A program made the position numbers and the translations under genes. 64,000 nucleotides of DNA, taken from Hymenopellis radicata (Eukaryota > Basidiomycota > Agaricomycetes > Agaricales > Physalacriaceae). The stretch spans positions 186,001 to 250,000 of the forward strand of contig JADNRX010000015.1 in NCBI GenBank assembly GCA_015501595.1. The letters run 5' to 3'. The notes under the pieces are model-generated. The model ran no database searches and was not told the origin of the DNA. It was given only the letters and a program-made list of their open reading frames with translations. The stretch's first letter is position 1. Each line of letters begins with the position of its first letter. Positions 39,761 through 64,000 of the stretch are shown here, in pieces.

Positions 39761-40223
39761 ATGTCATCCTCAGCTTCCACGAGTCCCAGGTGGGTTTCAC
39801 ATAAATTGCACGTCCAAAAAGCTCAGAGAATCGATATTAGAAGATGGAAGATTGGTCCCGAGCTGGGAGATTCAGTTACTGTGCGCAAGGCCGAGCGGAT
39901 CACGAAACTCACAAAAGGCGAGGCAGCGAATATCATCAGTGGTCTGAAGCACGGCGCTATGGTAGGTAGCCCCCTCGCACAGTGGATCGTTGGGCTTATA
40001 CGTGAATATTAGGCTTATCACCAGAAGAAGGCCAAGGCAGCGGCCAAGTCGAAGCAGCTGCAGTCGAAGGAGAAAGCGACGCTCGAGAGTAAACGTCTCT
40101 GTTGAACCTTTGCACGCCAATTGATGATCCACTCTTTGAACGTATCTCATCCATTTCTCAGCAGGTCCCAGCATCTTAGATGCCAGTGGACCTGTCCAAC
40201 GGTCCGGACGAATGTCTCAATAG
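39761..40223 (+). CDS. Small basic protein of unknown function
   Basis: I do not recognise this gene. From the ATG at 39761 the frame gives MSSSASTSPRWVSHKLHVQK, then RIDIRRWKIGPELGDSVTV and RKAERITKLTKGEAANIISG. After a GT-AG intron it continues AYHQKKAKAAAKSKQLQSKE, a very basic Lys/Ala/Gln helix. A second intron leads to the ending SILDASGPVQRSGRMSQ. About 120 residues, pI clearly basic, predicted helical; nucleic-acid or ribosome association would fit but is inference. An alternative short intron (39789-39825) would change the N-terminal frame. Confidence 0.45.
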
Positions 40224-40476
40224 CACTTACTTCAAGTCTTTACCCATAGGACATCGGCGTCTCCATTGTCTATGAAACATTTCGGGACAAGGTCGACCTT
40301 CGGGTCCTATTTCATCTTTCAAGTACATACATACATGCCACAACCACGCAGTACCTCTATCTCCAACACCGATTATTGTACTTGCATCATCAATTAAACG
40401 ACTTAACACGAGATTCTCGATGTAAATGGAGGGGATGATTCGAAGACAGAAGGAGCAGCCACAGCGGCACCGCTGC

Positions 40477-43111: not shown

Positions 43112-43360
43112 GAGAGGTCTAGATGGGTGGCGACCAGAGGTGGTGGTAAGAAGGAGACCCGTACCCGCGTGTACCGGTACCCGCGACCCGGTGCGGGTCA
43201 CCCGCGCGATTGCGCGCTTCTAAGCTTCGACAATGGCGAAGTTAAGACGCATGTCACGCTGAGCTGAGGTTGGAAAGAAAGCGAGAAATTCAAAATTACA
43301 AAAGCAGTCAATTATTTAGGAAGGTTTATGTTGTATCTACAAAGGAAGACATCACCTTCG

Positions 43361-45004
43361 CTAGTGCCGCTGGTCTAAAACATACATAGGTAATGGGTAC
43401 CCCATTTTCCAGAAATCTGCTCCATGAATGATCCCCTTCAGCCGTTCCTTATCCAATGTTCCCACCTTGTTGAAAAGCGACGCCCAACGTTTCAACTTGC
43501 AGAGGAAGTGTTCGACAAAGATGGGACCAAATTGTACCGTTTCCTTGTCCTCGTTGGATAGGTGTTGATCCATGAATGCGTAAACACATCGGAACGCCTG
43601 CATAACACAGCCTTCCTTCTTGGCGGCCGCGGCGTCGAGTCCCAAAAGCTGCAGACCCACAAGCGCACCTTTCTTAATTCGAAATATCTGTCGACCCATC
43701 TCGTCAACGGTTGGCTGTTGACAGAGCCCAAGAAGCGCGAGCGAGTTTGCAAGCTGAAGATTGGTTAGACTATTTTCGCCAAAACCCTCGACGCCACAAT
43801 CAACGCCCAATTGCAGTGCTTTCGTAAATGTCGGCAACTTCGCAGTGTCCCACTGGGCTATGGTAGCCAAGTCGATGTCGCACATGTTGGCTTCATTGAG
43901 GAAGTCGTGCCAGGAGTCTGCAACTTTATCGCTGAAGAACACTTCACATCTGGCGGCAATATCGATCTCCTTGCCAAGAATGGTATCCATCAATGATAAC
44001 TGCGAACAAAACTGAGCTCCCCAACATCTACCATTGGAAAATGGCTGAGGTTGACGTTTCGCCTTGACGTCTAACGCATACTGGGTGCGAGCGCTTTTGA
44101 AAATTTGGGTACACCGAGTGGCGGAGGTAATCCGCTCCTGCAGATGGTTTTGGATGAATTCGGCGGTTGGGCCGCCCTGGCCGGTGCCAATGAACAGGAG
44201 CATGTTCGATAAACCATGTTGGGAGGTGAGGGGTTGACCCTTCAAACGGGAAGAGAACAATGTATGCATGTCGTTGCGTGCTCGGCAGGGATTGAAATAG
44301 TCGACAACGATGTTTCTCTTCGAGGTAGTTATCGGATTACGACCAAGAAAGACCGGTTGGAGGTCTTCGACGCGTACAGTGTCTACGCGTCTGTGACCGC
44401 CGCGGAGATGAGCAAGAGCCTCAATGAGAATAACCCCCAAGCATCCAAACTCTGGCATATCACATCTCGGAAAGATTCCAGCGAGTGGTTCCTGTGGTGA
44501 AACCGCACTGGCATCCCCATCAACGAGGTGTATTTTAAGGGCTCTCGATGAGTGGTTTCGTTTAGTTCGGTTCGCCAGGATCTTCGGCAGGGAAAACTTT
44601 CCTAAGATTTCCCGAACGGCATCACCTAAGCCAATGGCATGGTCTTGTATGCTCGTTCCCTCGGGATGTAGCTTCAGCCAACGTAGGAAGTCCTGTAAAT
44701 GTGCGGTAGGATTCTTCAGCAGTTGGTCGGCGAAGGAGGAATATTTCTCACACTGTGATCTGGATGATGTTTCATTATCCCGCTCGACGATCGGCAGCTC
44801 AGTAGAATTGCTATTGTCGATCGTCTTGGCGGGCATTATGTCGTCCTCTCGCTCGCCAGCTATTTCCATCTCCGCGTGATAGTCGTTGTCCATTGGCATC
44901 TGGGCGGATGTTTGGTTGTTCAGTTGAACATCCATCTGGACTGACACCGGGCTATCAGGATCGACATCCATCTGAAAGTCTTTGTTTGCTTCAAGGTGTG
45001 TCAT
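43361..45004 (-). CDS. 547-residue ORF of unknown function, possibly the C-terminal part of the TET-like gene
   Basis: An uninterrupted frame. The first 90 residues are acidic and Asp/Met-rich (MDVDPDSPVSVQMDVQ). Then YSSFADQLLKNPTAHLQDFL, LGDAVREILGKFSLPKILAN, GCLGVILIEALAHLRGGHRR, LVGLQLLGLDAAAAKK, FGPIFVEHFLCKLKRWASLF and a terminus YPLPMYVLDQRH. No domain is recognised; the bulk looks globular and helical. It begins 13 bp after the stop of the TET/JBP-like gene on the same strand. A 52-nt GT-AG intron could instead splice the two in phase (codon CGC of the upstream ORF to ATG-GAT of MDVDPD), which would make this the C-terminal half of one protein. No frame breaks. Confidence 0.6.
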   Translation of the reverse strand: MTHLEANKDFQMDVDPDSPVSVQMDVQLNNQTSAQMPMDNDYHAEMEIAGEREDDIMPAKTIDNSNSTELPIVERDNETSSRSQCEKYSSFADQLLKNPTAHLQDFLRWLKLHPEGTSIQDHAIGLGDAVREILGKFSLPKILANRTKRNHSSRALKIHLVDGDASAVSPQEPLAGIFPRCDMPEFGCLGVILIEALAHLRGGHRRVDTVRVEDLQPVFLGRNPITTSKRNIVVDYFNPCRARNDMHTLFSSRLKGQPLTSQHGLSNMLLFIGTGQGGPTAEFIQNHLQERITSATRCTQIFKSARTQYALDVKAKRQPQPFSNGRCWGAQFCSQLSLMDTILGKEIDIAARCEVFFSDKVADSWHDFLNEANMCDIDLATIAQWDTAKLPTFTKALQLGVDCGVEGFGENSLTNLQLANSLALLGLCQQPTVDEMGRQIFRIKKGALVGLQLLGLDAAAAKKEGCVMQAFRCVYAFMDQHLSNEDKETVQFGPIFVEHFLCKLKRWASLFNKVGTLDKERLKGIIHGADFWKMGYPLPMYVLDQRH

Positions 45005-45017
45005 AGGGAATTAATAA

Positions 45018-46826
45018 CTACACGCGCGGTAACGCGCCATCCATCCCAAGCAGCTCTCCAATATCTGCATTCCCCGAGTATCCCTCCAGACGAGCCTCTG
45101 CAAGTGTGTTAAACCCTGTCTCCGAAGTCTGGAACATCGACGCTTGGTTAAACCACACCACTGATCCTCGACCATTTCCTGCCTCCCAATCCTCCTCTGA
45201 GACATTTGCTGGACGTGTGAGCGTAGGTCCCGATAGAGGCGTGGAGTTCTGTTGAGTAGGCCGTGCACCGTCGGGAGTCGTAACGATGTCAACGTTGAAG
45301 TGGTAGAAAAGAGAAGAGGGATACAGTAAGAATACACCTGGCGGAAGCTCCAAGCAGATGCCTGCCTCCCATATAACTAGCCATGCTTTTTCGCGATGAT
45401 TGAAGATGCCTATTGGAAAGTAAGAGATTGAGATTTCTTTGTTGCTCTTCAGGCTTACCATAGACGAAGACCACACATACTGCCAGCGCAAGGTTCTTGA
45501 AGTCGACGTGAGGGTCACAGAACACTCGCTTCACTCCAGCAAGGGGTGCATTGAGGCACCAATTCCAAAACCGCCCGAACATTGGCTCCATTTTATGATT
45601 CGTCCTCATGTAATCGGCGCAGGCCTGAAATCGAGCTGCGATCGCAGGAAATAGGATCGCAACCAAGTCGTTGGCGATACCACTGGAAGAACGTCAAAAA
45701 AAACTCCGGAAAAGAGAGCAGCATTTACAAACTTAGCACGGTTGAAAACACGCTTTGGACAAAAATACTCCTTGATAATAGGCGCGTTTTCCTCGTGCCA
45801 TTTTGATAAGGCTGGGACAGATTTGTTGTTGCGGTCTGCACCCGCTATGCAGAACCAATGATTGCCGCGCAAGTTTCCAGCGATGTCTGAATCAGAGGGT
45901 GGTTTACAGGCCTTGACGAAGGCGGCAGCCTCCGCACCAAACTCAGCAGCCAAGGCAGCCATTCCAGGCGTAATCTTTGAGCGAAAGATTATTCGACGGT
46001 GCTCTGCATCGAGAACCTGCGTGGCTTGGCCATTGTACGGTAGAAACTGTATCCTATCTAGAAACTCCCAGACCTCATCCTCAGAACGATGAGCGTCGCG
46101 CAGAATGCGTGCCCAAGACTGAGGTATTCCCGCTCTCAGTCCCATCCAGCCAGTAGTAGTAATCGGAAGGTCGATGGCTGTGTTCAGCCCGTTTGTGGCT
46201 GCATAGGTCTCCATTTCGTTCAAGATACGCGCCTTGTATGCCTGCTTTTGGCGATGGCTACGTTTCGGTCGCACCGTTTTTGCGGATTCTCCAGAGCGTA
46301 TGCGCCTTGAGGGTTTTCTAGTAACCTTTGTCAGTGGACAAAATAGGCTGACTAAGAATTCACGAACTCTTGTGAGTACGCGACATGAGGTAGCGTCGGC
46401 TTTTTCTTTTGCTGTGCCCGCGTTTGTGCCAGCTTCTTGCGAGGTGCTGAGTGGCTGACGCGTGGAGGACGTGTGGCGGGGCCCGCTGTAGAGGCTAAGG
46501 AAAAATCCATGTTGTTGGAGGCAGACGGCGTAGACTGGGAGAGGATTTGTCCTAGACTGAAATCGTCGGGTCCATGGCCACTGTCCCGCGTTGTCACCCA
46601 GGATAGCAGCGCGGTCACGTCGGGGTCCGCATCGCGTCGAGAAAGCTGGGCATGGGTCCTTGAGAGGAAGATGAGATCAACGAGGCTGTTCTCCAGATTG
46701 AGAGTCTCCCCAGACCTAAGGCTCCGTTAGTCTGAGGCATTCTGTGTGAATCCCTGCTTACATCTGGCCGCCGGCATCCTTCCATCGAGCAGCGAACGAC
46801 TTGAGGGCGCTTCGCGTCAAACGCAT
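45018..46826 (-). CDS. TET/JBP-like 2-oxoglutarate/Fe(II) dioxygenase domain protein
   Basis: Likely iron- and 2OG-dependent oxygenase of the TET/JBP superfamily, whose members oxidise 5-methylcytosine or thymine in DNA. Start MRLTRSALKSFAARWKDAGG, then a GT-AG intron to SGETLNLENSLVDLIFLSR. A basic linker (APRKKLAQTRAQQKKKP) and KRSHRQKQAYKARI follow, then a globular part (ITTTGWMGLRAGIPQSWARI, VFNRAKFVN). The oxygenase core shows the metal HxD in DPHVDFKNLALAVCVVFVYG. Then come WLVIWEAGICLELPPGVFLL and YPSSLFYHFNVD with the distal His, and GRGSVVWFNQASMFQTSETG with the 2OG-binding Arg. These three blocks follow the order and spacing of fungal TET/JBP proteins. It ends GALPRV. Activity on DNA is inferred from family only. 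Confidence 0.72.
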
Positions 46827-47597
46827 GATGAGGGTGGGAGAGGCTGAACAGATGTGGATATCAGCACCCGTTGGGTGACACGCACAGCCTGGGGAAAGGC
46901 TTAGAGGGCCACGCACCTTTATACTCCCAAGGGTGGGAAGCGAACGAGATCACGCGTTGGACGCGCCGTTGAGGATCACGAGCACGCGTTCGCTGCTCGT
47001 GGTGGTGAGAGGGAGGAAGTAAACGAAGGACCCTGGACACGCGGCATTCCGTGGCCGAGCGCTTAGCTTGGGCGCTTATTCATGTTCCAATCAGAACGCT
47101 GATCTGTTCTGGCGGAACAACACGCCTTGCCATTCTCCTCCGACACTCGTTCCCTGGCTGACTTCCAGATGAGCGTGCAGGGGCTCGTGAGGTGCGTTTA
47201 CTTGCATCTCTAGTGGGGAGATCCATTAACCCTTCCATAGGTCTACAATTGTGACAATGAAGACCACGCCCTGCGAATGTCCCCGTTGTGACTGTCGCCT
47301 CGCAAGCATCTCGTTCGCCGCTCAGGAGATTATCGCGGCGTTGAAGTCGAACGCTGCTACCGCCATAGACGCCACGCTTCTCCTCGAACCCTCCCCCATA
47401 CGCCCACTCGATCCACTGCGACGACGGGACCATTTATTAATATTGAGACGTTCCGCGAGCTGGATGGGCTCTTTGTCTCCTTGTTTACTCTGGTCGTTGG
47501 TTTTCTAGTGCGCTTGATAGCACCCGTCTTATCCATGGACAGGCACGACGACGAGCAGCCCCCAACAAAGAGCTCGTCAGCCTCCAATCTTCTCTAG
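46827..47597. other. Gap between TET-like gene and truncated HSP104
   Basis: Holds the TET-like promoter and the upstream flank of the HSP104 fragment. ORFs on both strands have no recognisable feature. The Walker A part of HSP104 expected just upstream of 47598 is not there. Confidence 0.4.
46917..46924 (-). promoter_or_regulatory. TATA box of the TET/JBP-like gene
   Basis: TATAAAGG on the minus strand, about 90 bp before the ATG at 46826. Supports the chosen start and suggests an active or recently active promoter. Confidence 0.45.
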
Positions 47598-48513
47598 CTT
47601 GCAACGCTACTCTTCGACTCCGCCGATGCTATGATCCGTATCGATGGCTCAGAGTACTCTGAGAAGCACTCCATCGCTCGTCTAATCGGTGCACCTCCAG
47701 GATACGTTGGCCATGACCAAGGTGGTCAGCTAACCGAGTACATTCGCCGCAAGCCTTACAGCATTGTCCTCATCGATGAGATTGAGAAGGCTTCCCGAGA
47801 ATTCGTTACACTGTTCTTACAGGTCCTTGATGACGGTCGACTTACCGACGGTCAAGGGAGAGTCGTTGATTTCCGAAACAGTAAGTTTCTTCATCAAGTC
47901 TTGCATGGCATTCTTCTTACTGTTCGTTTTCTAGCCGTTATCATTATGACATCCAACCTTGGCGCTGCCTATCTCAATGACATGGGCGAGGGACCAGTCA
48001 AGCCTCACACTCGTCAGCTTGTCATGGGCGCAATACAGAGTCATTTTCCTCCTGAATTCGTGAATCGAGTAGATGAAATCATCATCTTCGTGAGTACATT
48101 CGGTATGATGCATGTTCCTCTTTCTGACTTAGTTTCTAGCGTGCTCTTTCTCGGAAACATGTCCTGAAAATTGTGGACATTCGACTTAAGGAAGTCGAGG
48201 AGCGGCTGGCGGAGAGGAAGATCACTCTGGACATAGACACTTCCAGCAAGGAGTATCTCATGTCTGTCGGCTACTCGCCGATATACGGTGCCCGACCCTT
48301 GAATCGTTCCATTCAAAGCGAGCTCCTCAACCCGTTGTCGATGATGATCCTCTCCGACCGCATTCGGGATGGTGAGGTGGTGCGGGTCCGTTTCGATGGA
48401 CCGCACAATCGGCTCAATGTCATTCCGAATCACGATGGGATGGAGATGGACGACATGTACATGGATGTGGATTATGACGACGACGACGAATCAAGGTTGA
48501 GGAAATGGACTAG
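47598..48513 (+). pseudogene. HSP104: 5'-truncated HSP104/ClpB (second half of NBD2 and C-terminal domain)
   Basis: Full HSP104 is a disaggregase of about 900 residues. Here only the last third exists: [20 protein letters not shown] then [20 protein letters not shown], Walker [12 protein letters not shown], and [23 protein letters not shown] intron leads to [20 protein letters not shown]. Next come [16 protein letters not shown] with the arginine finger region, then VGYSPIYGARPLNRSIQSEL (sensor 2) and VRVRFDGPHNRLNVIPNH. The homology begins right after a CTAG acceptor-like site at 47597. No Walker A (GPSGTGKT) or NBD1 lies upstream. One missing A at 48489-48490 shifts the last codons, which otherwise read KVEEMD like true HSP104. 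Probably a duplicated fragment; the intact gene must lie elsewhere. Confidence 0.8.
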
Positions 48514-49294: not shown

Positions 49295-50602
49295 ATGTCT
49301 TGGTTCGGGTGGATACCCACTACCTTCGACGCCTTGCAGGTTATCGAGGGCGGACGACGTGGCGTCATTCCGCGCGTGACCCGACGCCTTGTCGACACTG
49401 AGCACAACAAGATCTGCAGTGGGAGTGTCTTCGTATTTGACGAGGAGGAAAGCGGCATAGACAAGTGGAGGGACAAGTATTTGTGGTCACCTCATCGACG
49501 TGATGAGAATTTCTACATCTGTCAGGAAGTCAGTGTCCGCCCGAGGCCCAAAGGCAACGATGAAAATGGAGAGGAATCCCACATCGACAACGCACCCCAA
49601 CTCAAAGTAGATGGACTCATAAAGAAAACGTTTACTGTCACTATCAACGACAGGCGTCTCCACTTAATATCATATTATCGACAAGCGGACACCAACGGTC
49701 GTCTTCAGGTACCCACGATGAAGCCGAAACCATTCTCATTTGATGTCGATGAATACTCGCGGTGTGCATTCCGTATTCCGCCCAAGTTGGAGCTTGGAAG
49801 CGACGGCGTTGTGCGATACCGATGGGAGCGTTATGAGGAGGAACGTAGTGGCACGGGACTTCTGGACGACACGTCGAATGCTCGCGTCGCACATTCCTCT
49901 TCAGGCCCAACAGCCATCTCTTCTGCCCCTTCCCACACAGATACCACGTCGTCCACTGCGACATTTCATTTCTCTTCCACTGATAGCACCGAGGATCACG
50001 ACGACGACGACGATGACGTGGAGACGCTCCGTAACAAACTTCGCCATGCCCGTGGCGAAAAGCGTGCTCTGTCTGCTCAATGTGTTGAATTATCTTCCAC
50101 GATTGCGGCGCTCACCAATGACCTCGAGCGCGCCCTCTCGTACAACGAATCAGTGGCTAGCTCTATTGCGGGGCTGAAGGGACAGTTTGTAGGGAAGAAA
50201 GACGAGAAGAAGAGACAAACTGAATTGGACAATGCTCAATTTAGATTGGATCTCAAATCCAACAAGGTCAATTTCACGGGGACATTGTCATCTCAAAATG
50301 TGCAGCGCCTGCGCGATATTGCGTGGTGTCTGGGAATCGCCCAGACGGGGAAGATAAAGGAGGTCTCGGAACGCGTCAGAGCCCATTTCACAGATAATCC
50401 CCATCTCAAGTCTGAGGCACGGTACGAGGCATTGTTTCCACCCCGTGGTGCAAGTCTTGGTCACAAGCGCCGTCGCGTTGACAAGTCACCTGGCATGTCG
50501 CGCGCTTCCTCACCTTCCGCTGAGAGTTCCCCCCAACGTCGTAAGCTTCTACCATCTCCCGCTCAAGAATTGGCCGACGTCACAAATATGGATGTCTTTT
50601 AA
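49295..50602 (+). CDS. WOPR-domain (Gti1/Pac2) protein with coiled coil and SAP-like C-terminal region
   Basis: The N-terminal third is a WOPR DNA-binding domain: GWIPTTFDALQVIEGGRRGV then IPRVTRRLVDTEHNK, SGSVFVFDEEESGIDKWRDK, LWSPHRRDENFYICQE and GLIKKTFTVTINDRRLHLIS. This is the Gti1/Pac2/Wor1 family of morphogenesis and nutrient regulators. A Ser/Thr-rich linker and an Asp run follow, then a coiled coil (ETLRNKLRHARGEKRALSAQ). The end has RLRDIAWCLGIAQTGKIKEV then SERVRAHF, a SAP-like helix-extended-helix motif, and a basic tail GHKRRRVDKSPG. Ordinary Gti1/Pac2 proteins lack this C-terminal half. Single exon, unlike most neighbours. The ATG at 49295 opens on the domain. Function: probably DNA-binding; role unknown. 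Confidence 0.78.
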   Translation: MSWFGWIPTTFDALQVIEGGRRGVIPRVTRRLVDTEHNKICSGSVFVFDEEESGIDKWRDKYLWSPHRRDENFYICQEVSVRPRPKGNDENGEESHIDNAPQLKVDGLIKKTFTVTINDRRLHLISYYRQADTNGRLQVPTMKPKPFSFDVDEYSRCAFRIPPKLELGSDGVVRYRWERYEEERSGTGLLDDTSNARVAHSSSGPTAISSAPSHTDTTSSTATFHFSSTDSTEDHDDDDDDVETLRNKLRHARGEKRALSAQCVELSSTIAALTNDLERALSYNESVASSIAGLKGQFVGKKDEKKRQTELDNAQFRLDLKSNKVNFTGTLSSQNVQRLRDIAWCLGIAQTGKIKEVSERVRAHFTDNPHLKSEARYEALFPPRGASLGHKRRRVDKSPGMSRASSPSAESSPQRRKLLPSPAQELADVTNMDVF

Positions 50603-51305
50603 GGTAAGTACCGATAGCCGATCTTTCCTCCCAAATGCAACTCTCTGATCCTCCACCTCAGTCCTTCCCGTATTTGTTGCCGCCGCTTGCTCCTTTCCTA
50701 TCCACCTTGCCTCCCCATGGATCTAACCATAACCAGAATAGTCTTCTGCACTTTTTCGAACACACTGAAAATAATAAAGCACGCATTAGATAGATTAATC
50801 ACACTTGTAGAATCTGACTGTATTGTAGTCTGTACTGAATTGACCATCCTCCAATTGTTGGTTTCTTATCTGGTTACTGGAAGTTCTCAGCCAAGGTACG
50901 TCAGCCTAAGGGATGCGACCCTCAGCGAAAGACCGCACTCCCTTCTCTGGCTTAGGACGCGTTCGCCAAGGACCCCCAATAGTGCTACCAAATGTCGTCT
51001 TGTACGTTCGGACAAAAATTGGCCAAAAGTGGTCAAATGTCGTGTCAAGTTCGGACAAAATGATGGGGCCCGCAGGCGAAACCCAATCTGAGGGTGTTCT
51101 GGAGAGGCCTCAGATTCAAACGAGTAACTGTCTTGGAGTTTCATGGGTTAGGTCAACTCATCGTGGCCTGATAGCATGGATACAAGGATAGCAACAAATT
51201 TCTTATATTATTCACGTAGCCAAAACAGTATCCACTCCTATGATGATAGCATAGTTTTGAAATTGAAATACACAGTTCTCCCATCCAAGAGACCGAGTCT
51301 GCCCC
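50603..51305. other. Non-coding stretch, possibly mobile-element derived
   Basis: No gene supported. A/T-rich in its middle, then a stretch with internal direct repeats (AAATTGG, GTTCGGACAAAA twice at about 51008-51060) and a 9-bp inverted repeat, AATCTGAGG 51085-51093 with CCTCAGATT 51108-51116. Such features occur in terminal regions of transposable elements, but no element boundary was found. Confidence 0.35.
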
Positions 51306-53253
51306 ATGTCGTTGGACATCGAAAGTACTGCTGTCTTTCGACGAGCAGAATGGATTGGAAAGGGGCAAAAGTACCGCGACGCGCCTCTACACGTCATGGA
51401 GGCATTTGTGGCGGAAGTCACAATGCCATCCACTCTCGCACAACTCCTCCCGGCACAGGAAGGCCAGTCCCTGAATCCATCGCGCTGAGCTTTCCACTTC
51501 AATCACACTCGCTCATTACATACCCAGAGCAGTGGTTTTCTCGAGAGACGCCATCCCGCACGCTAACGGCGGAAATGCTCTACGACATCATATCGCGTCG
51601 CACGATATCGCCGGAGGAACATCTGGTGGCAATGTCGGACATTGCAGGTCAACAGTGGTTAGACGGCGCTCAGTCCATCACTGATCCTCGGCGAAAAGGA
51701 CGCCAACCATTCCCACTATGGGTACTCTCGTTCCGGAGGACATTGTCAACAATCGTTCAGAAGCAGGAAGACTGGAAGGAGTCTCACCGTTTTGTCTCCA
51801 TCGAGGTTACGAAGCTTAACGTGGGTCCTATCCCAGTATCGAAAGCATTTTTCGAGGCATTTCCTGGGATAGCCCGGTCAATGCAGATCATTCACCTTTA
51901 CGACGCACAAATTTGTCAGGCTCCTACTTCCTGTTCAGCTGTGCGACGATATTGCTCAGACCATGATTGATGGCTTACAACAGCGTTGCCAAGATCAGCT
52001 AGGTCATCATGAAGATAATATCATCAGCGCTTCACGCTTCTGCAGGTAGCAGTTGAACGGGATAGACTTGTCGCTGGTCACAGGCTCTCGTCAAGCTTAG
52101 TTGTCGTCGAGGATGCAGTTGACCGAAATCCACGAGTGAAGCTGTGGTTTTCCGTGCTATTCGCAAACCATGAGGTTGTTCTGTGTGTCGACTTTGGACA
52201 GCGAACTATAAGCTATGGTAAGTTTTTTGTTTAGGATTCAGACTTGATAAAACTCACCTATCGGTAGGTGACTCGATTAGAGGGTTTTCGCCGCCAACAG
52301 AAGTCCTGCGTGATATGCAGAAAGGGCTGAAAGCGCGATTCAAGGGACCTTTTATGGACCTAGGAAATGTATTAGCGCATGGAACTCAACACGACGGCAC
52401 ATCATGCATACCATGCTCAGCGAATACGATCGCTCACGGGGTATTTGGAGAGCCTCTGTGGCAGCCGGAGACTCGATTTGTCGACCGCTTTCGTTGGTTT
52501 AGGCGTCTTGTGGCGAAGGAGACGCACTGGCAGCCAAAGATGCAGAGGACGGGAACAGGAACGACTTTGCATCCGGTACAGCCAGAAAACAAGCCGAATG
52601 TCTCTAGTGATGTACGCTAATTCATCCGTCGTCCGCCCAACGCTCGCAAATCTCTTGAATCCATCGGAGGGTATTAGTCTCGTAAACCGACTCAACGGAG
52701 ACGATGGGATACTCACGATCGTCTCTTAGTAGAGGAGGGTATGGCGTTCGGCGACATCATGCAGTTTATGCATCTCGAAGTAGAGGAGGAGTTTTCGATG
52801 GAGGCAGAGGAGTCGATGAACCTAGCCGATGAGAAGATGATGAGCAATGACAAGATAGAAGATGAAAGCGGCGACGCTCATACCATGGATGTTGACGAAT
52901 CTCCCCAATATGAACCCGGCTTATCTACAAGCGCAGCTTACCCGAACACCGCAGCTAGTCCACTTATACACTCCCAAAAGGATGCGTGGGCATCTCTATT
53001 TGCGCAAAAGAAGAGCACTGCAACAACGTCGTCAAAGCGTAAGTGCGACAATACTGCTGGATCCACTGGCAAGAACGCCAAAAAGTCGCGCGCTCGTTCT
53101 CCTTCGCCTACACGCGTACAGTCACTGATGTTGTCGAAGTCATTCTGTTCTATTCTCGCATCTACCATATACATGTCCCCGCACCAATCTTCAAACTCCA
53201 GAATGACCAGTTACTTAGAGCGATCAACGCAATTTTTCCAACCGTGCCACTGA
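51306..53253 (+). pseudogene. Ulp1-like cysteine protease (peptidase C48 fold), several frame breaks
   Basis: The core is visible after one GT-AG intron: LWFSVLFANHEVVLCVDFGQ then RTISYGDSIRGF and GTQHDGTSCIPCSANTIAHG. These carry the catalytic His, Asp, oxyanion Gln and Cys of SUMO-protease-like enzymes. An N-terminal block (LAQLLPAQEGQSL, LWVLSFRRTLSTIVQKQEDW) resembles the region preceding Ulp1 domains in basidiomycete transposon-linked proteins. Downstream come PTLANLLNPSEG, an acidic stretch (EVEEEFSMEAEESMN) and a basic end (SSKRKCDNTAGSTGKNAKKS). At least three frame changes are needed (near 51480, 51930-51950, 52030 and around 52620), so this is either a relic or damaged by base errors. 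It does not join the WOPR gene. Confidence 0.55.
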
Positions 53254-54477
53254 TAGTTTGACTTAGGCCATTTACTGAAATATGGTCAGATGGCAAATCT
53301 ATGGCAGAAGATGGCACATACAGTCCAAGGCGGAGAGCCTCTTGATGACGTGTGTTAACGTCGGCACCACGGTTTTTGTTGAAGAAGGACCTAAATTCGA
53401 CTTCCGCGGCAGATGGTTTAGGTCGAGGCACCGCAATGCCAGTGGCTCGTCTCCAATTTTTCCACCTGACATTGACAAGAGGCCATTCGCTGAAATATGA
53501 TCAGACGGCGAATCTAAGACAGAGAATGTCACATACAGTCCAAGGCGGAGCGCCTCTTGGTGACGGACCTCGATATCGGCCTGCGGATACTTGTCGAAAA
53601 AGAGACGGAACTGAATATCCTTGGCTGCATCACTTTCAGGATCTACTTGCGAGAGGAGACGTTGGTAGTCTTTGGCTTGGTCTCGAGGCACCGCAATGCC
53701 AGTTCGGCGTCTCCAACCGTTCCACCTGTCGTTGGCCAGAATCCAATCGCTGAAATATGGTCAGACGGCGAATCTAAGACAGAAAATGTCACATACAGTC
53801 CAAGGCGGAGCGCCTCTTGGTAACGGACCTCGATATCGGCCTGCGGATACTTGTCGAAGAAGGCGCGGAATTCTTTGTTAACTTTGCGCGACTGGTTAGG
53901 GTCCGACGAATCTGTTGCACCTATACCGTTGTATCAGACTGCTGCACATCATGTTTTACAACCATACGTACTCTGCTTCTTGGCCGTGGTCTTTGACTTC
54001 TTGATAGGTTTGCCGGCAGTTTTCACGTTCTCGTCTGGAGGCTCATTCAGCAAGCGAGCACTTTATGAAATAAACTATTGCTTGCCAGCACTGATATCCT
54101 GCTGCGTTCCTTTCTTCGCCTGCTTAGACTTGATGGCTGGAGCACCTTGACGTGCCAATAGCGTCGTAAGTAAGTCATATCGGAGGGCCTCACTCACCCT
54201 TTCCATCAGCCACTTTACGAGTCCCCAGATCATTCGAGGCGCGTAAGATGTCGGGATCAACGTCGTGTTCAAACGTCCCGTCGTCACGACCGCGAGCGGC
54301 ATCAGCCTCTATGCGCACCATAAGGACCGAGTCGCGCAGGATGTCGGGATCAACGTCGTGTTCAAACGTCTCGTCGTCACGACCGCGAGCGGCATCAGCC
54401 TCTATGCGCATCATAAGGTCATCCGAGTCACGCAAGATAGCGGGATCAACGTTGTGTTCGAAGGAGTCGAGAGTCAT
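53162..54477 (-). CDS. Repeat-built protein of unknown function
   Basis: Not recognised. From the ATG at 54477 the protein begins MTLDSFEHNVDPAILRDSDD and contains three 31-32 residue repeats (FEH-VDP-ILR...MRIEADAARGRDD). An intron and a Lys/Gln-rich middle (SKQAKKGTQQDISAGKQ, KPIKKSKTTAKKQS) follow. The C-terminal part has three copies of FFDKYPQADIEVRHQEALRL then GLYV with SPSDHISANG, separated by variable linkers. Both the DNA and the protein repeats are imperfect, showing age or selection. The exon joins in the middle are uncertain. The last repeats overlap the 3' end of the Ulp1-like locus on the other strand. Confidence 0.45.
53322..53880. repeat. Three long direct repeats, about 215-260 bp period
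   Basis: The sequence CAGTCCAAGGCGGAG recurs at 53322, 53537 and 53797, each followed by a similar 60-150 bp block; copies 2 and 3 are nearly identical over their first 60 bp (CGCCTCTTGGTGACGGACCT and on). Confidence 0.85.
54247..54470. repeat. Three tandem 93-96 bp repeats
   Basis: Units start at 54247, 54340 and 54436 with GATGTCGGGATCAACGTCGT or a close variant. Periods of 93 and 96 bp preserve the reading frame on the minus strand. Confidence 0.88.
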
Positions 54478-55086
54478 ATTGATGAAGAAGGGGGAAGGAA
54501 GGATGGGGTGTGGAAAGAAAGCTCGAGCTCTGCGCGCTCTTTATACCCAGCAGGAGGGTATTACTCGATTTGGCTCGCTGCCGACGCTGCGCCAGCGATG
54601 GTGACGCTCACGCGCGTCATCGAACTGACGATGACGTCGTCTATTCGTCACGACGCCACCAGTGGCGAGTTCACTGTTCAGCCAGTTCACGTCGTTCGCG
54701 GGTTTGTCCAGTTCGTCGATCGCAATATGCCCCTCGAAACAGGAAAAGGTGATTATGGGCACATATTTGCCTTACGTCGATGGCAGCAAGCATGCCTAAT
54801 ACGCGAGAAAATAGTGAGCCCGATAACGCACCTGCAACAGGCATTCTCGTTATCGGGGTAGAGGCGGGAGGATGGACACACCGAAGTGTGGGCCAGTCAA
54901 TGGCTGGATAGAGCCTTTATATAGATTATCAACAATATCACGTCGTCCTCGAATACGACGCATACTATTGAAAGAAAGTAAACAGTCCTGGTATTTTCCC
55001 TTGTTGAACGTTGAACAAGGCATTTGCCTCTGACTAAGACTGCCCGTTTTGCTCGGTTATTTCCGGTACGGCTTCTTTTGGCCACC
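54478..55086. promoter_or_regulatory. Divergent promoter region, repeat-built gene / ICE2
   Basis: Contains the TATA box at 54539-54545, a TTTATATAG element at about 54913-54921 that could serve ICE2, and a 10-bp inverted repeat CCCGATAACG (54819-54828) / CGTTATCGGG (54848-54857) with a 19-nt loop. ORFs here show no recognisable protein. Confidence 0.45.
54539..54545 (-). promoter_or_regulatory. TATA box of the repeat-built gene
   Basis: TATAAAG on the minus strand about 60 bp upstream of the ATG at 54477, a normal distance for a fungal core promoter. Confidence 0.45.
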
Positions 55087-56425
55087 ATGGTCTTGGATGC
55101 GTTCCGTGATTCTTTCAATGCGTTCTCGACCGCCGTCCATCCATGGCTCCTTAGCGCTGTGTCTGCGTGGGGCACCACTCTAACGTGCCTTGTCATCTTC
55201 ATTTTTATCGTCCTCCGAATTTTTACCGTCCTTGAAATTTTTACCATCTTCCAAATCCTCGTTTTCCTTCCCCTCACGTTGGTCACGCTCAGCAAGCCGG
55301 CATTCTTGCTACTTTCTCTTCTTCTTACCGTGCATTCACTCATCCATGGCACGATGATCTTGTTCTGGGGTTGGGAGGCCCTATCCGTCCTACAAGTACC
55401 AATGCATTCATTTTTGCTGCTGGTCTGTTTCAATGCGTTTTCGACCGCCGTCCATCCATGGCTCCTTAGCGCTGTGTCTGCGTGGGGAACCATCCTAACG
55501 TACCTTGGCCCGTTGTTCATCGCCATGGAGGGACTATCCAGTCTTCTCGTCGTTCAAAGGCTTGGTGAGCAGGCCAAGGCACTGGTGGAGGAAGGAGAGG
55601 CGTATCAGTTTGGCCTGCTCATTGCTTCGGCGACTGCGTATGTGGTCACTGCAGGATGGATTGTCGTCGTGCGTATTGTCCACCTTTTTCTGAAACCCAC
55701 GTTGTGTTTACGCTTTGTATAGGCATATCCGGACGCAGCTGCTTCTCCTCTTTCTTCGACTCTCCTGGGCGTAGCCATCACGGCCCTGCTTTTCCTGACC
55801 TTCATCGGATTCTTTTTACGACGGACGAACATCATAGAGACGTCGGGTCTCGCGCTTTTCATTGCATACAATGTGTGGCTCTGTGGCTTTGACCCAACGT
55901 CATTTTCCGACCCGTCCTCTTCATAGTATGTGGGCTTTATCGCCTTCCAAAAGTCTAGTCTGAACCATCTCCAGTGCACCGCTTCTTCCCAATATTCTCC
56001 CTCATTTCCAGACCTTATTGAGCTTTGTCATGAATACTTTACCCAAGCCAGTCTTGGTTGCTCTTCTGTATCGTCTAGCGGTACTCCAATTCGCCTCCAA
56101 AATCTTGCCTGGGATCGGCGCAGACAGCTGGGAGTACGAAGACGGCGTCGATGGTGTCTGGGAGGATCGACCAACTAGAACTTTAACTCGCATTCTGTTG
56201 ACATATCGCCAACTTATATTTGTGATGGTGTATTCACATCTTCTTCGTGAGTGTCTTGTTTCTGAGGACATTGAATGATTTACTCAATCGCGTGCAGTGC
56301 TAGACCACTCCTCCCAAGTGTGGTGGCGCTGGTTCAACATATTCTTTACGCTGTTCATGTGGGCTATTGAGCTACTTGTCAGCAACGAGGATGACATTCT
56401 GTCGAAAGATTGGAAAGTGGATTAA
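55087..56425 (+). CDS. ICE2: ICE2-family endoplasmic reticulum membrane protein
   Basis: Polytopic ER protein needed for cortical ER inheritance and lipid homeostasis. The ATG at 55087 sits in a perfect GCCACCATGG context. Family blocks: FLPLTLVTLSKPAFLLLSLL, WGWEALSVLQ, FNAFSTAVHPWLLSAVSAWG and TILTYLGPLFIAMEGLSSLL. Then come GEAYQFGLLIASATAYVVTA, SPLSSTLLGVAITALLFLTF, YAPLLPNILPHFQTLLSFVM, NTLPKPVLVALLYRLAVLQF and ILPGIGADSWEYEDGVDGVW. It ends VWWRWFNIFFTLFMWAIELL then ILSKDWKVD. Three GT-AG introns, no frame breaks. Odd point: the first 35 residues repeat the FNAFSTAVHPWLLSAVSAWG block, from a 78-bp duplicate placed upstream of the normal N-terminal helices, followed by a short 18-bp tandem repeat. 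Confidence 0.9.
55113..55506 (+). repeat. 78-bp duplicated segment inside ICE2
   Basis: Copies at 55113-55190 and 55429-55506 differ at about five positions, and both are in frame. Between them, 18-bp units (CGTCCTCCGAATTTTTAC and CGTCCTTGAAATTTTTAC) are repeated in tandem around 55208-55245. Confidence 0.85.
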
Positions 56426-57227: not shown

Positions 57228-60218
57228 ATGTTGAAGCTTCCACAGATTGGACGAGCGGGATCCCTCATTTCGAGAATTGCGCATGCCCGTTCGACACCCT
57301 TGGATATCCACCCGGAAGTGCAGACAGCTATACAGGAAAGAAAACCCGTAGTTGCCCTTGAGACAACCCTCGTCTCTCATGGCTTTCCTTATCCGACCAA
57401 CTACGAGCTGGCGACATCCTTGGAGGACATTGTACGCTCGACTGGCTCCATTCCAGCTACGATTGGGATCATCGAGGGGAGGGTGAAGGTCGGTATGAAC
57501 AGGCCCGAGCTCGAAAGGCTAGTCTTCGTTCTCGCCTTTGAAGCGCGTCGCGTGACGACTAGACTCTAGATTGGCAGACAAGGAAACATATCCCGGCGCA
57601 GTCAAGGTTTCGCGTCGCGACATTGGACCAGTGATTAGTGCAAAGATGGATGGAGGTGTGCTTAGACTTTGATTTCACGAACAGTTTGCCTCAATTCGTG
57701 CTAGGAACAACATGTAGTGCGACCCTCATCTTCGCAGCTATGGTAGGAATAAAGGTACGCCCATTGTATAGTACTGTGACAGGCCTTATTCATTGAAGTC
57801 TACTAGGTGTTCGCTACGGGAGGGTATGACAATGTCCCTTATTTCGTGTGTGGTTACTCAGATGCACGACTAGTCTTGGAGGTGTTCATCGAGGAGGGGA
57901 GAGCAGTGAGTCATGTTCACGTTGTCGCCACTGTATTCCGACATAAGCCTTGCAGCCATGGACGTCTCTGCTGACCTTTTTGAGCTGTCACGATGCGAAG
58001 TCGGCCTGGTTTCGGCTGGTGTAAAGTCGATCTTGGATATTGGACGGTTAGTCCGCTTCTCCGTCTGCCGAATTCCTCATTTACAGTACGTGACTAGGAC
58101 ACTGGAATATCTTGCAAGTCATTCATTTTTACCTTCATCTAACATTTCCGCCATAAAGTACCTCGACAGGAAACTCTTGGTGTACCAGTTGTAACTTATG
58201 GGCCAACCCGCCATTTCCCGGCCTTTTTTACGCGTCATAGCGGTTTCCAGGTTGGTCTTCGTTACATACAGATATCTGTTCGACCTTTTCACTTAAGTAC
58301 GATAGGTCCCTTACAACGTGGAGACGCCCACTGCCGCTGCAAGCTTACTCCGTATGCCCCATTTCATACCTATTTTCTCATTCCTAATTTCTACCAGGAA
58401 CACAATGGCAATTCGGTATGAAGAACGGCGCTCTCATTGCCGTGCCTATCCCAGAGGAACATCAGGCCATAGGATCAGCCATTCAACAAGCGGTGGAACA
58501 AGCTATTGAAGAATCTGAAGCCAATGGAATCAGTAAACAGGGGAAAGAGGCGACACCATGGTTATTAGCGCGCGTTGCGGAACTGACCGGTGGTGATTCA
58601 CTGACTGCCAATATCGCTTTGCTAAAGAACACGGCATTAGTCGGTACGTTCTGATTTAAATTCGGCAGCCTACCATTCTAATTGCTCTTTCATTAGGTGG
58701 CCAAATTGCTGTCGAATATCAAAACTTGGCGGATGAGAAAGAAGTAAGAAAATAGGTTGTATTTGTTACATTAAATAGTCAAGTTTTTTTTGGATTTAGA
58801 TCTCTTTTACGCCGGAGCCTCAAAGCCCATATGCAAGATCTGTTAAACGCCGGCCTTTGAACACTTCTGAACCAGCACGACTGGTGATCGTAGGCGCTTC
58901 CGCTGTCGATGTGACAGCCAAGGCCAGCATGTCGTCGGAGTCATCGTTGGCCGCGCATTCAACTGTTCCAGGAAGTGTCGAATTATCGCTTGGTGGTGTT
59001 GCACGTAATGTGGCCGAAGCATCTCATCGTACTTTTGCGAGTTCGTCAGCCACCTTCTCCTTTCACCAATCGGCGATGATTCGTTCGGAAACCTACTGCT
59101 CAAGGAAACGGAGGCCCTTGGTATGCGCACCGATGGCCTCATCAAGACGAACGGTATGCGAACCGCTGTGTGCAATATGTTGTTGAGTAACGACGGGCAC
59201 CTTATCACTGGTGTAGCTGATATGGACATTACGGCACAGTTTTCGGGTGATGCGGTTCGGGTCTTCACTTTGACTGTAACTCCCTCTCGACTTACATATT
59301 TTACAGGTGATAGAGCAGCTCGAGAAACATAACCCTAATTTAGTCGCGTTCGATGGCAATCTATCTCCCTCGACCACTGAGACGCTGATTAACTATTGTA
59401 ACGAGAAGGGCCTCCGAAGTACGTTTCTCGTTCCCCAGACATACATTAAATTTACCCTCCTTGCAGCATTTTTGTACGTTTTGAGGTACAATGTGTTCAA
59501 AGCACGCTGATCAAACTTCAGCGAGCCGACATCTATCACGAAATCAACAGTCATACTACCTGCGATATCTTCTCTCATCACTTTCGCCCGCGGATCTCCC
59601 ATCACTTTCGCATCTCCCAATATGCTCGAACTGCAGCAGATGTATGAAGCTGCACGCGAGGAGCCCTTGGATCTGTTCTCCAAACCTCTGTGGTGGACCC
59701 TAATTGACAACCTTGCGTTGGGTTCGGAATACCGAATGGACCTAGAAAAGCTCGCTAGGCATTCAGTCCTGGCGAGCAATAATTCCAAAGGCGATCTTTC
59801 TTTCCTCGTGGACAAAGGCGTTGTAAGCATGGCCGTCAATCTGCTTCCCTTCATTCAACACATCATCATCAAATGCGGTGAACTGGGAGTTGTGGTTGTC
59901 ATGCACGTACCCGAAATTGCCGACTCTGGCTGGCGGAAGAGTGATCTTGGAGAGCGATACATCGTTGCTGATGGAAATGCGGGGCACGGACTGGTGGTCG
60001 CTCATTTCCCTCCGCATGAAGTTGGCAATGGAATGATACGGAATGTCACAGGCGCTGGGGATACGTTCGTAGGGGCTCTCCTCCATTCGCTTCATAACGA
60101 CACGGCTACGAGCCATCCAAGCTTCACGAGGATGATCAAACTTGCCCAAGAAGCTGCGGTACTGACCTTGCAGAGCGATCGTGCTGTATCGACCGAGTTA
60201 CCTCAAGCCAAAGCTTAA
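57228..60218 (+). CDS. Pseudouridine-5'-phosphate glycosidase fused to pfkB pseudouridine kinase
   Basis: Bifunctional catabolic enzyme: the C-terminal kinase phosphorylates pseudouridine and the N-terminal PsuG domain splits the C-C glycosidic bond. PsuG blocks are VQTAIQERKPVVALETTLVS, GSIPATIGIIEGRVKVGMNR, VKVSRRDIGPVISAKMDGGT, LGGVHRGGESTMDVSADLFE, TLEYLETLGVPVVTYGPTRH and FGMKNGALIAVPIPEEHQAI. PfkB blocks are ARLVIVGASAVDVTAK, VELSLGGVARNVAEASHR, LLLSPIGDDSFGNLLLKETE and IRNVTGAGDTFVGALLHSLH, the catalytic Asp motif. Gene structure is unusual: one GC-AG intron (58114-58169) and a 7-nt exon (59467-59473). One base is missing at CC 59053-59054 between SSAT and LLLSP. Some 14 introns in all. 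Confidence 0.9.
59467..59473 (+). other. 7-nt microexon of the PsuG-PsuK gene
   Basis: CATTTTT, flanked by two 48-nt GT-AG introns (59419-59466 and 59474-59521). Only its inclusion keeps frame and gives EKGLR-TFF-EPTSITKS, the phosphate-binding-like PTS motif of pfkB kinases. Confidence 0.7.
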
Positions 60219-60470: not shown

Positions 60471-61048
60471 CTAGTATGGGACGATGTTCCCGTTCTCGGA
60501 TTTGACGGCCTCTTCAGCAGGAATCTGGCGACGCACGACATCTCGTTTGTCATAGGGCACGATGTTTCCGTTGTCAGATTTAACAGCCTGTTCGGCTGGG
60601 ATCTGGCGGAGTACGACATCGCGCTTGTCGTAGGGTACGATGTTGCCGTTGTCTGATTTAACAGCTTGTTCGGCAGGGATCTGACGCTTCTGTGGAATGT
60701 TGTCGTAGGCACAATGTTTCCGTTCTCTGATTTGACTGCTTCTTCGGCGGGAATCTGGCGCTTCTGTGGAATGTTGTCGTAGGGCACAATGTTTCCGTTT
60801 CTCTGATTTAACGGCTTCTTCGGCGGGAATCTGGCGACGTACGACATCTCGTCTGTCATAGGGCACGATGTTTCCGTTGTCGGATTTAACAGCCTGTTCC
60901 GCGGGGATCTGGCGCTTGTAGGAACGATGTTACCGTTTTCCGACTTGACGGCCTCCTCAACAGGAATAGCTCCCCCAATCTGCTGACGCTTGTCGTACGG
61001 AACAATGTTGCCGTTGTCTGACTTAACAGCCTGTTCAGCAGGGATCTG
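60471..61048 (-). repeat. Tandem repeat array encoding the KEP peptides
   Basis: Eight copies of 63-81 bp, starting with CAGATYCC and carrying AAYGGNAACATYGTNCC. Neighbouring copies are highly similar (for instance 60690-60800), so recombination could change copy number. Confidence 0.85.
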
Positions 61049-61267
61049 GCGCCTTCCAACATCAGGGATTTCAGACCTGCTGTACGCAGGAATGACTTCG
61101 AGAGGGGCAGGGGAGCGTGCTTTAAGCACGGGGACCTGATAAGTCAGACATTAGCACAGCGAAGGGGACTTTGAAAAGTTAAAGCTTACGGGCATTACTG
61201 GTGATGCCATGACCTGGCTCGCCAGGAGGACCAAAGGCAGGAGGAGAGCAGTGAGTCGGGAGAACAT
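60471..61267 (-). CDS. Secreted kexin-processed repeat precursor (KEP-type, eight peptide copies)
   Basis: Signal peptide MFSRLTALLLPLVLLASQVM (cleavage near ASA/ASP), one 54-nt intron, a short propeptide (LEVIPAYSRSEIPDVG), then eight copies of a peptide with consensus QIPAEQAVKSDNGNIVPY. Each copy follows a basic site (GRR, DKR, QKR, YKR or VVRR), so a Kex2-type protease would release peptides starting with Gln. Spacers alternate among DKR, DNIPQKR and DKRDVVR. Copies vary only at Q/E and D/E positions, which points to purifying selection on the core. The last copy ends at the stop right after VPY. Three single-base breaks (60921-60922, 60798-60800, 60708-60709) shift frame without changing the repeat pattern. 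This matches fungal KEX2-processed repeat proteins, which can be pheromones, wall peptides or cyclic-peptide precursors; which one is unknown. Confidence 0.85.
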
Positions 61268-61774: not shown

Positions 61775-64000
61775 ATGTCCGACTCGCGTTTTTCTCGTCT
61801 ACGCTCTGATCCACGCTTCCGACGACCTAAGAAAGCAAAATCCAAGGTCGTTGTCGACGAGCGCTTCAAATCCGTTTTCGCTCAGGAGAAAAAATCCAAA
61901 AATAAATCCGCTGGTACTTTTTTCAGGAACTGCATTGGCATAGCATTCATCATCATTCGTAGGACGTGTTGACAAGTATGGCCGTCCATTGAGTGCATCG
62001 CATGAACAAGACAATCTCCGTCGGTTCTATCGCATCGAGGACGAAGACGAAATTCCAGACGAGCCAAAACTACCTGACTATGCTCGCGGTCAGGTGCTTC
62101 TAGAGTCTTCAGACGAAGAAGATGCTTCAAAAGCTCAGGACGACAGCGACGAAAGTGACATTGACGGGTTCGTGTCGGTCGGCCTCCGTGGCGAACATAG
62201 CGATGTGGAGATTGACCTGGATGAATCTCAAACTGCCGAATTATCTGCCCAGGCTGCCGCGTACTCACAAGAGCATCCACAAATTGAAGAGGGAGATAGA
62301 ACGCGTCGCATTGCAGTCGTTAACCTCGACTGGGACCATGTTCGTGCTAAGCACCTATACAAAATCTGCTCTTCCCTCGTTTCACCAACAGCGCCATCAT
62401 CCCGTGCTGGTTCTTCGCGTAAAGCCACCACGTCTCAGGTTCGTGGGCAGGTTAAGAGTGTTCGCGTCTATCCTAGTGACTTTGGAAAAGAGAGAATGGC
62501 GAGAGAGGAAAAGGAGGGTCCGCCTGCAGAACTTTTCAAGACAAAATCGGATTCTAAAGAGGTCAATGAGAAGACTATCTACGAAATCGGTGATGAAAAC
62601 CAAAGTGAACGAGGAAGCACTTCGTAAATACCAGCTGGAGAGGCTGAGGTATGTTTCACCACCATTCTCCTCCACACATTCTCAAACACAAATAGGTATT
62701 ATTATGCCGTGATAGAGTGCGACTCGGTTGATACAGCTCTCATATATACGATGAATTGGAGGGGACTGAGTTGGAACGCTCTGCAAATGTGTTCGACTCA
62801 GTTTCATCCTGACGAGATGACTTTTGAGAATCCTTTCCGGTGCGCACCAGAGATCTCCGCTGTCGCTTGTTCTGATTGTTGATCAGCGACGAGGCAACGG
62901 AAGATACGGGTACTCAGACCAAATCGTTGGATTTCGTTACTGATGGTTTGTGCATTTGCTGATTTCGCAGCGTCGTTACTAACACTGATCCCAGCTCTTC
63001 GCCACTCGAAAGTCAAACTCACGTGGACGAGGATGATCCTGAAGAGAAATCAAGTCACTCGGCGCCCTTTTTCTCGAAAGGAAATAGAAGAAGACAACTT
63101 TCAAACATATCTCGCCTCGTCGTCTTCAGACTCGGAGCAGGATGAGGACCGACCGAAGAAAGGCGACCGCAAGGCGCAATCGCGGAACAAGCTACGGGCA
63201 CTGCTCTTGGGCGGAAATGATGCCATGCCCGAAGGCTGGGCTCGCGACGAAGATGGAGATGCTGGCTCGGACGTAGATATGGAGATCACATTTACTCCGG
63301 TCTGTCCGAGTCGAAAGGTGATCGCGACGAGACGACCTTGGAGAAGTATCAGCGGAAGATGAAGGAGAAGAGGAAGCAGAGGGTGGAACAGAAGAAAGGT
63401 GGTGCGACCAAGGGGAAGGATGAAGAATTGGAAGGCGATGACTTCTTCGATGCGGACAGTGAGGAGGATCTGGTCGAGAAGCCTCTGAAGACGAACAAGG
63501 CAGGCAAAGAGAAAGAGCGAATTCCTCAGGATCTGTCGCACCTCGTCGACGAAGAAGATGATGGGAAACACTTTGATCTGAAGGCCATTCTGAAGGCAGA
63601 GAAAAAGTCGAAGCGAAAGGGCAAGAAGAGTAAGGATGCTGCACCAACTGACGAGACGCAACCCGATTTCTCCATCGACGTTGCGGACAGTCGGTTCAGT
63701 GTGCTGCACGAGGATCCTACTTTCGCTATTGACCCAAGTAATCCTCAGTGCGACCGTTTACCTTTCCAAATCCGACGATATCGACTAAATTATTCACAGG
63801 TTCAAGAAAACCAAAAGCATGTCGGCATTGCTGGAAGAGGGTGGCAAGCGAAGACAAAAGAAACGGGGGGAGGATGGCACCGCGACGACCCCGACTTCGT
63901 CAACTGGTTCTGGGCGCAAGCTTGAAAGTCTGGTTGAGAGTGTCAAGAGGAAAAGCATGGTTCAAGGGCAAAAAGGGAATGGTAAACGACAAAGGTTATC
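61775..64000 (+). CDS. ESF1: ESF1-type 18S rRNA processing factor, runs to window end
   Basis: Nucleolar protein of the small-subunit processome. Start MSDSRFSRLRSDPRFRRPKK, then DERFKSVFAQEKKSKNKSAG and RVDKYGRPLSASHEQDNLRR, with FYRIEDEDE and acidic tracts. NLDWDHVRAKHLYKICSSLV is the RRM-like start of the ESF1 core. Next come RGQVKSVRVYPSDFGKERMA, KYQLERLRYYYAVIECDSVD, IYDELEGTELERSANVFD and ALRHSKVKLTW. The C-terminal part has DSRFSVLHEDPTFAIDPSNP then FKKTKSM, the NUC153 signature, and a basic tail cut by the window end. At least six single-base breaks occur (near 62596-62599, 62738, 62796, 62808-62809, 63014-63046 and 63299-63300). ESF1 is normally essential, so these are best read as base-calling errors. 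Confidence 0.9.

Follow-up and report, generated by a model that had tools for sequence, protein, structure and literature searches.

A minus-strand repeat gene in the window (the whole stretch of 64,000 nucleotides analyzed here, part of the 403-kb Hymenopellis radicata contig C463) is very probably a new member of an agaricomycete family of KEX2-processed repeat proteins (KEPs) whose type member is KEP 497993 of Coprinopsis cinerea; its most likely predicted products are linear peptides with an N-terminal pyroglutamate, about 18 to 23 residues long. The species belongs to the Physalacriaceae, a family of agaricomycetes. The gene, its repeats, the constraint on the peptide, and the family were established in this analysis; what is in print for the Coprinopsis homologue is that peptides are made, carry pyroglutamate, follow a tissue pattern, and are lost in the knockout (PMC9769878). 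The class, a Kex2-type repeat precursor, had been proposed in the original prediction, made from this DNA alone, and is borne out by a core that is identical at 13 of 18 residues to the KEP 497993 peptide and by the presence of KR and RR sites. Its definition was taken from two surveys of fungal KEPs, as given there (PMC6339444, PMC7329392).

The proposed gene limits proved to be real ones, with a start and a stop codon on the minus strand (Table 1), although the intron at 61189-61136 had been omitted from the proposed structure. The N terminus, MFSRLTALLLPLVLLASQVMASP, is hydrophobic, with a top 11-residue mean hydropathy of 2.75 in a hydropathy computation, and the residues of exon 1 also open both the nearest database protein, P0001 (hypothetical protein BDZ89DRAFT_1034183 of Hymenopellis radicata, 239 aa), and the second haplotype copy of the gene, L005. 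The deposited model of P0001, which covers window positions 60471-61267, contains an out-of-frame stretch; the public annotation of the gene is therefore wrong in part and misstates the repeat protein. A Pfam identity was also sought for P0001 to P0005, and the matches, including DUF7330 in P0002 and P0004, all fell below the curated cut-offs and were set aside.

Table 1. Features of the repeat gene and of its direct neighbors, in window coordinates
Feature	Position	Strand	Description
Repeat gene	60471..61267	minus	ATG at 61267, TAG at 60473-60471
Exon 1	61190..61267	minus	start codon and signal-peptide-like hydrophobic N terminus, MFSRLTALLLPLVLLASQVMASPVMP
Intron	61136..61189	minus	54 bases, GT...AG; missing in public gene model P0001
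Pro-region ahead of core 1	61049..61135	minus	VPVLKARSPAPLEVIPAYSRSEIPDVGRR; exon 2 begins at 61135
Core 1	60995..61048	minus	QIPAEQAVKSDNGNIVPY, Q/D type, whole
Core unit 2	60915..60971	minus	AIPVEEAVKSENGNIVP..., E/E type; frame break at end; without basic residue just before
Core 3	60858..60911	minus	QIPAEQAVKSDNGNIVPY, whole, second frame; 78-base unit missing from second haplotype copy
Core unit 4	60761..60836	minus	E/E type, spacer DNIPQKR; frame break inside
Core unit 5	60687..60760	minus	E/E type, spacer DNIPQKR; frame break inside
Core 6	60630..60683	minus	QIPAEQAVKSDNGNIVPY, whole
Core 7	60552..60605	minus	QIPAEQAVKSDNGNIVPY, whole; single Arg before (DVVLR)
Core 8	60474..60527	minus	QIPAEEAVKSENGNIVPY, whole; Tyr is the final residue ahead of the stop
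Stop codon TAG	60471..60473	minus	immediately after core 8
Neighbor, tail to tail	58418..60218	plus	Indigoidine_A (PF04227) and PfkB (PF00294) pieces, probably one gene
Neighbor, head to head	61775..64000	plus	ESF1-type; pieces matching RRM_ESF1 and NUC153 within this span

Tandem Repeats Finder returned an array with a period of 78 bases at 60474-60914 (score 419), and the repeated core was found eight times in the window, in a broken frame, and seven times in one open frame on the other haplotype. These units had been described as eight near-identical copies, each behind a basic pair or triplet. The number stands, but core 2 (AIPVEEAVKSENGNIVP) diverges more than this description allows, and the KR or RR flanks expected of a KEP lie directly before only six of the eight window cores (and five of the seven L005 cores), as core 2 is preceded by ...QQIGGA and core 7 by ...DVVLR. 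In most of the internal cores the tyrosine is followed by D or DNIPQ, unlike in the last core, and because the last core stops at Tyr before the stop codon, ...PY is suggested as the functional C terminus.

Two core types can be told apart, since residues 6 and 11 are linked, as either Q6/D11 or E6/E11, in 8/8 window cores and 7/7 L005 cores, the window and L005 sets being alleles; this linkage may only mirror how the units were duplicated. When the nine distinct whole core DNA sequences of both haplotypes were compared, pS was 0.658 and pN was 0.045 (ratio 0.068) over 36 pairs, which are not independent of one another and in which gene conversion may matter. Synonymous change per site between repeat units was thus about 15 times nonsynonymous change, and therefore the amino acid repeat has been kept while the codons differ. 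In the homologue P0006, two core types (KS...PYT and KA...PYS) alternate as a two-unit higher-order repeat, an arrangement reminiscent of the Q/D and E/E types in Hymenopellis.

The eight cores do not share one reading frame, a point missed in the original prediction: relative to the other haplotype, exon 2 shows three length differences of a single base each, which shift reading between two frames. By their start, cores 1, 2, and 5 lie in one frame and cores 3, 4, 6, 7, and 8 in another; the breaks hit cores 2, 4, and 5, which leaves five of the eight cores intact in the present window sequence. On contig C1269, exon 2 of the same gene (L005) reads through without a break, encoding 195 residues that include seven cores. 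The segment C1269:4489-19011 is colinear with the window contig over about 14.5 kb, in two pieces of 97.9% and 97.1% identity, and owing to this colinearity and identity, C1269 probably represents the other haplotype. The unit missing there is window core 3, whose closest counterpart among the cores is core 7 (94%). For the window regions of about 39500-48300 and 50300-55200, the match on C1269 is absent or rearranged at the corresponding end. A protein search of the genome (E up to 1) gave four matches, all at the window locus and on C1269, and no further paralogue beyond these two haplotype places.

Comparison with the published Coprinopsis peptide, pyro-QIPAELPTKSINGNIEPY, places the gene in the KEP 497993 family. 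The identity of 13/18 residues was reached in none of 200000 shuffles of the core, for which the maximum was 8, and the family motif QIPAE....KS.NGNI.PY is present in the Hymenopellis core. Starting from this core, we collected at least 67 distinct family proteins, 5 of them by a single-sequence search and at least 35 and at least 47 by two profile searches, a total that is a lower bound as each profile search scored the best 7992 candidates by shared words. These members, all gathered by their similarity to the Hymenopellis core, document a conservation across the agaricomycetes: they come from at least 12 named genera (Hymenopellis, Termitomyces, Lentinula, Tricholoma, Agrocybe, Hericium, Amanita, Desarmillaria, Russula, Lactarius, Hermanssonia, and Serendipita), and many other matches are metagenome proteins. 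The C. cinerea precursor was not returned under its name among the matches listed for the profile searches.

Cores were then counted with regular expressions in 67 entries, namely 66 proteins and L005 in place of the broken allele P0001. The fixed core pattern was found in 64 of these entries, 219 times in all, and in none of P0061, P0066, and P0067. A KR or RR pair lay at most 16 residues upstream of 191/219 cores, and the residue directly after it was Gln in 130 of these 191; downstream, KR or RR followed within 10 residues in 165/219 cores, 32 cores ended the protein, and 22 showed neither. As 32 of the 64 proteins end exactly at the Tyr or Phe of a core, Tyr is suggested to be the natural C terminus. 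Standard length was shown by 184 of the 219 cores, and among these E5 was present in 91%, K9 in 82%, G13 in 96%, and Y18 in 92%, frequencies to be read against a pattern that forces P3 and the Tyr or Phe end and restricts positions 5, 9, and 12/13. Because the homologues were gathered by core similarity, the conservation of the core is in part a circular result, which applies less to the basic sites, the glutamine, and the exact ends. Homologues that had lost the basic sites or the core, which the original prediction had named as contrary evidence, are thus not what we found, with the core in 64/67 entries (the partly circular figure) and KR or RR before 191/219 cores. A PLxxIPxY-like motif followed by a basic residue occurs in the pro-region of 17/67 database proteins (P0001 included), and this segment could be a second conserved peptide.

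The original prediction had known of no named peptide with this core. The KEP 497993 peptide is, however, already in print (PMC9769878), and since the core belongs to this published, conserved agaricomycete family, the supposed novelty falls away. According to Vogt et al. (2022), KEP 497993 gives rise to pyro-QIPAELPTKSINGNIEPY, as confirmed by mass spectrometry, and to the pyroglutamyl form of QIPAELPTKSINGNIEPY with a C-terminal Lys (PMC9769878). This report places the 18- and 19-mers mainly in premature caps and gives them as undetectable in the culture supernatant, while another product of the same precursor, pyro-QVPVDEPA, was in both supernatant and mycelium, and Pichia expressing the precursor released a related peptide into its supernatant. 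As reported there, the free peptides were detected and quantified, were linear apart from the pyroglutamate, and were gone in the deletion strain. The same source describes no visible phenotype for the kep deletions tested, continued peptide production in all kex knockouts tested, for which its authors invoke redundancy, and no antibacterial activity of synthetic peptides on the strains tried. It also counts at least 13 homologues of KEP 497993 in other species and supposes a biotic role (PMC9769878). Because, in this account, the 18-mer was not detected in the supernatant and the peptides persist in the kex knockouts tested, neither secretion of this core in the mushroom nor dependence on Kex2 is proven for Coprinopsis. 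Among the papers listed in the literature search, none with Hymenopellis peptides or expression data came up.

The two precursors, compared here through the published peptide, share the repeat architecture and a core of the form QIPAE..(T/V)KS.NGNI.PY, the pyroglutamyl peptides being those of Coprinopsis (PMC9769878). They differ at five core positions: Q/E6, A7, V8, D/E11, and V16 of Hymenopellis correspond to L, P, T, I, and E in the published peptide. The Hymenopellis precursor is further distinguished by the spacers D, DNIPQ, and DVV and by seven or eight cores depending on the haplotype.

The Hymenopellis precursor would enter the secretory pathway, as its N terminus suggests, and a Kex2-type protease would cut after KR or RR. 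Carboxypeptidase trimming would then leave mainly linear QIPAE(Q/E)AVKS(D/E)NGNIVPY, with or without a C-terminal D or DNIPQ, and the N-terminal glutamine would be converted to pyroglutamate, as in the homologue. The calculated monoisotopic masses of the predicted pyroglutamyl forms are 1924.953 (Q/D 18-mer), 1939.953 (E/E 18-mer), 2039.980 (Q/D form with D), 2507.218 (E/E form with DNIPQ), and 2394.207 (core 2 form), to which deamidation at Asn-Gly may add. The capacity of these Gln-first peptides to form pyroglutamate, put forward in the original prediction, is documented for the 18- and 19-mers of KEP 497993 (PMC9769878). In the Hymenopellis genome, S8 peptidase and P domain fragments follow one another on contig C963, an order of domains that is Kex2-like. 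A search for a glutaminyl cyclase in the genome found none: PF05096 had 0 matches, and PF04389 (M28) had 16, of which 12 loci were fetched. Comparison of 4 of the 12 with solved structures gave aminopeptidases for three (for one of them only weakly) and no match for the fourth.

Other readings of the locus were weighed against this assignment. If the frame breaks are real, the window haplotype is a pseudogene and only the other haplotype makes the peptide, which is compatible with the family assignment. The three frame-breaking length differences within the coding region and the out-of-frame stretch in the deposited gene model fit such a decayed copy, but the cores downstream of the breaks are whole, and the head-to-head neighbor is damaged in the same way. 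ESF1 is essential in yeast. In the ESF1 gene, at 62602-63297, nine more single-base length differences separate C463 from C1269 (introns not separated), and the RRM_ESF1 match of the window fragment is shortened to positions 1-77 (74.5 bits), compared with positions 1-99 (98.5 bits) on C1269. As a neighbor that is essential in yeast is broken likewise, base errors in this part of C463 are likely. We therefore consider a pseudogene quite improbable, and the breaks in the window contig are most likely base errors, an explanation that is inferred and not proven.

The KEP-like architecture would also suit a dikaritin-type RiPP precursor, in which the core would be cyclized through its tyrosine. 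Dikaritins of the ustiloxin type and epichloecyclins combine a signal peptide with repeated cores and Kex2 sites (PMC9769878), to which the signal-peptide-like N terminus, the cores, and the KR and RR sites of the Hymenopellis gene would correspond; a Tyr is present in each Hymenopellis core, and the genome contains 23 matches to UstYa (PF11807), the one cyclization family searched for. None of these 23 matches, however, obtained in a six-frame search exon by exon, lies on contig C463, and the homologous Coprinopsis peptides are reported as linear save for pyroglutamate (PMC9769878). Nor was a known peptide-modifying family present among the eight Pfam-matched frames of ten open frames chosen nearby (window right of 43 kb; two had no match). 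The cyclized product is thus highly improbable, and a plain peptide, which the original prediction had rated as likely as a RiPP, is favored. In a published survey, DUF3328 (UstYa) genes were near 103/1680 (6.1%) of basidiomycete KEP genes (PMC7329392). Two or three UstYa matches each lie on C596, C576, C967, C1015, C758, C767, and C1016, which may mark RiPP clusters elsewhere in the genome. As for the surroundings of the repeat gene, the tail-to-tail neighbor is a gene that probably belongs to pseudouridine metabolism, and at a greater distance Pfam assigns open frames to a mitochondrial carrier, a helicase, a Gti1/Pac2 regulator, and an AAA protein. At window 54231-54459, a tandem repeat (2.4 copies, 93 bases each) overlaps an open frame.

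The repeats could instead act within a secreted protein that is left uncut or cut only in part, for instance as a hyphal-surface component like Ustilago maydis Rep1, rather than as free signals. Two cores without a dibasic site directly before them are in keeping with this, and Rep1, also a basidiomycete repeat precursor cut into peptides, is reported to govern properties of the hyphal wall through those peptides (PMC6339444). By that description, the Rep1 peptides are set apart by their 37 residues and their wall role. Moreover, free peptides of the Coprinopsis homologue were found and quantified (PMC9769878), and a stop right after Tyr or Phe in 32/64 proteins points to a defined free end, so that we regard an uncut or partly cut protein as unlikely. 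A mating-pheromone-like precursor was considered as well and rejected, as the STE13 dipeptides XA and XP are absent after the basic pair in the cores. Ascomycete alpha-pheromone precursors and the STE13-type KEPs of basidiomycetes share the Kex2-processed repeats with the Hymenopellis gene, but its cores start with QI, end with Tyr, and have no C-terminal Trp.

Taken together, these results favor membership of the Hymenopellis gene in the KEP 497993 family, a family with proven products and wide conservation. The difference in copy number between the two haplotypes makes the Hymenopellis member material for peptidomics, and the analysis of its locus exposes a partly wrong public gene model. 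The kept residues E5, K9, and G13, which the search pattern does not exclusively demand, narrow what to test. We infer that the decisive elements of the mature peptide are the N/D-G turn, the pyroglutamate, and the C-terminal Tyr. At a guess, its likely role lies in interactions, either with other organisms or among tissues, and the first half of this guess is shared with the Coprinopsis authors. More speculatively, and with considerable doubt, the family may provide a mushroom-wide signal, from Serendipita to the gilled mushrooms, built on one pharmacophore of pyroglutamate, N/D-G turn, and free Tyr end, to which Hymenopellis would contribute two linked isoforms (Q6/D11 and E6/E11), longer tails, and the PLxxIPxY peptide.
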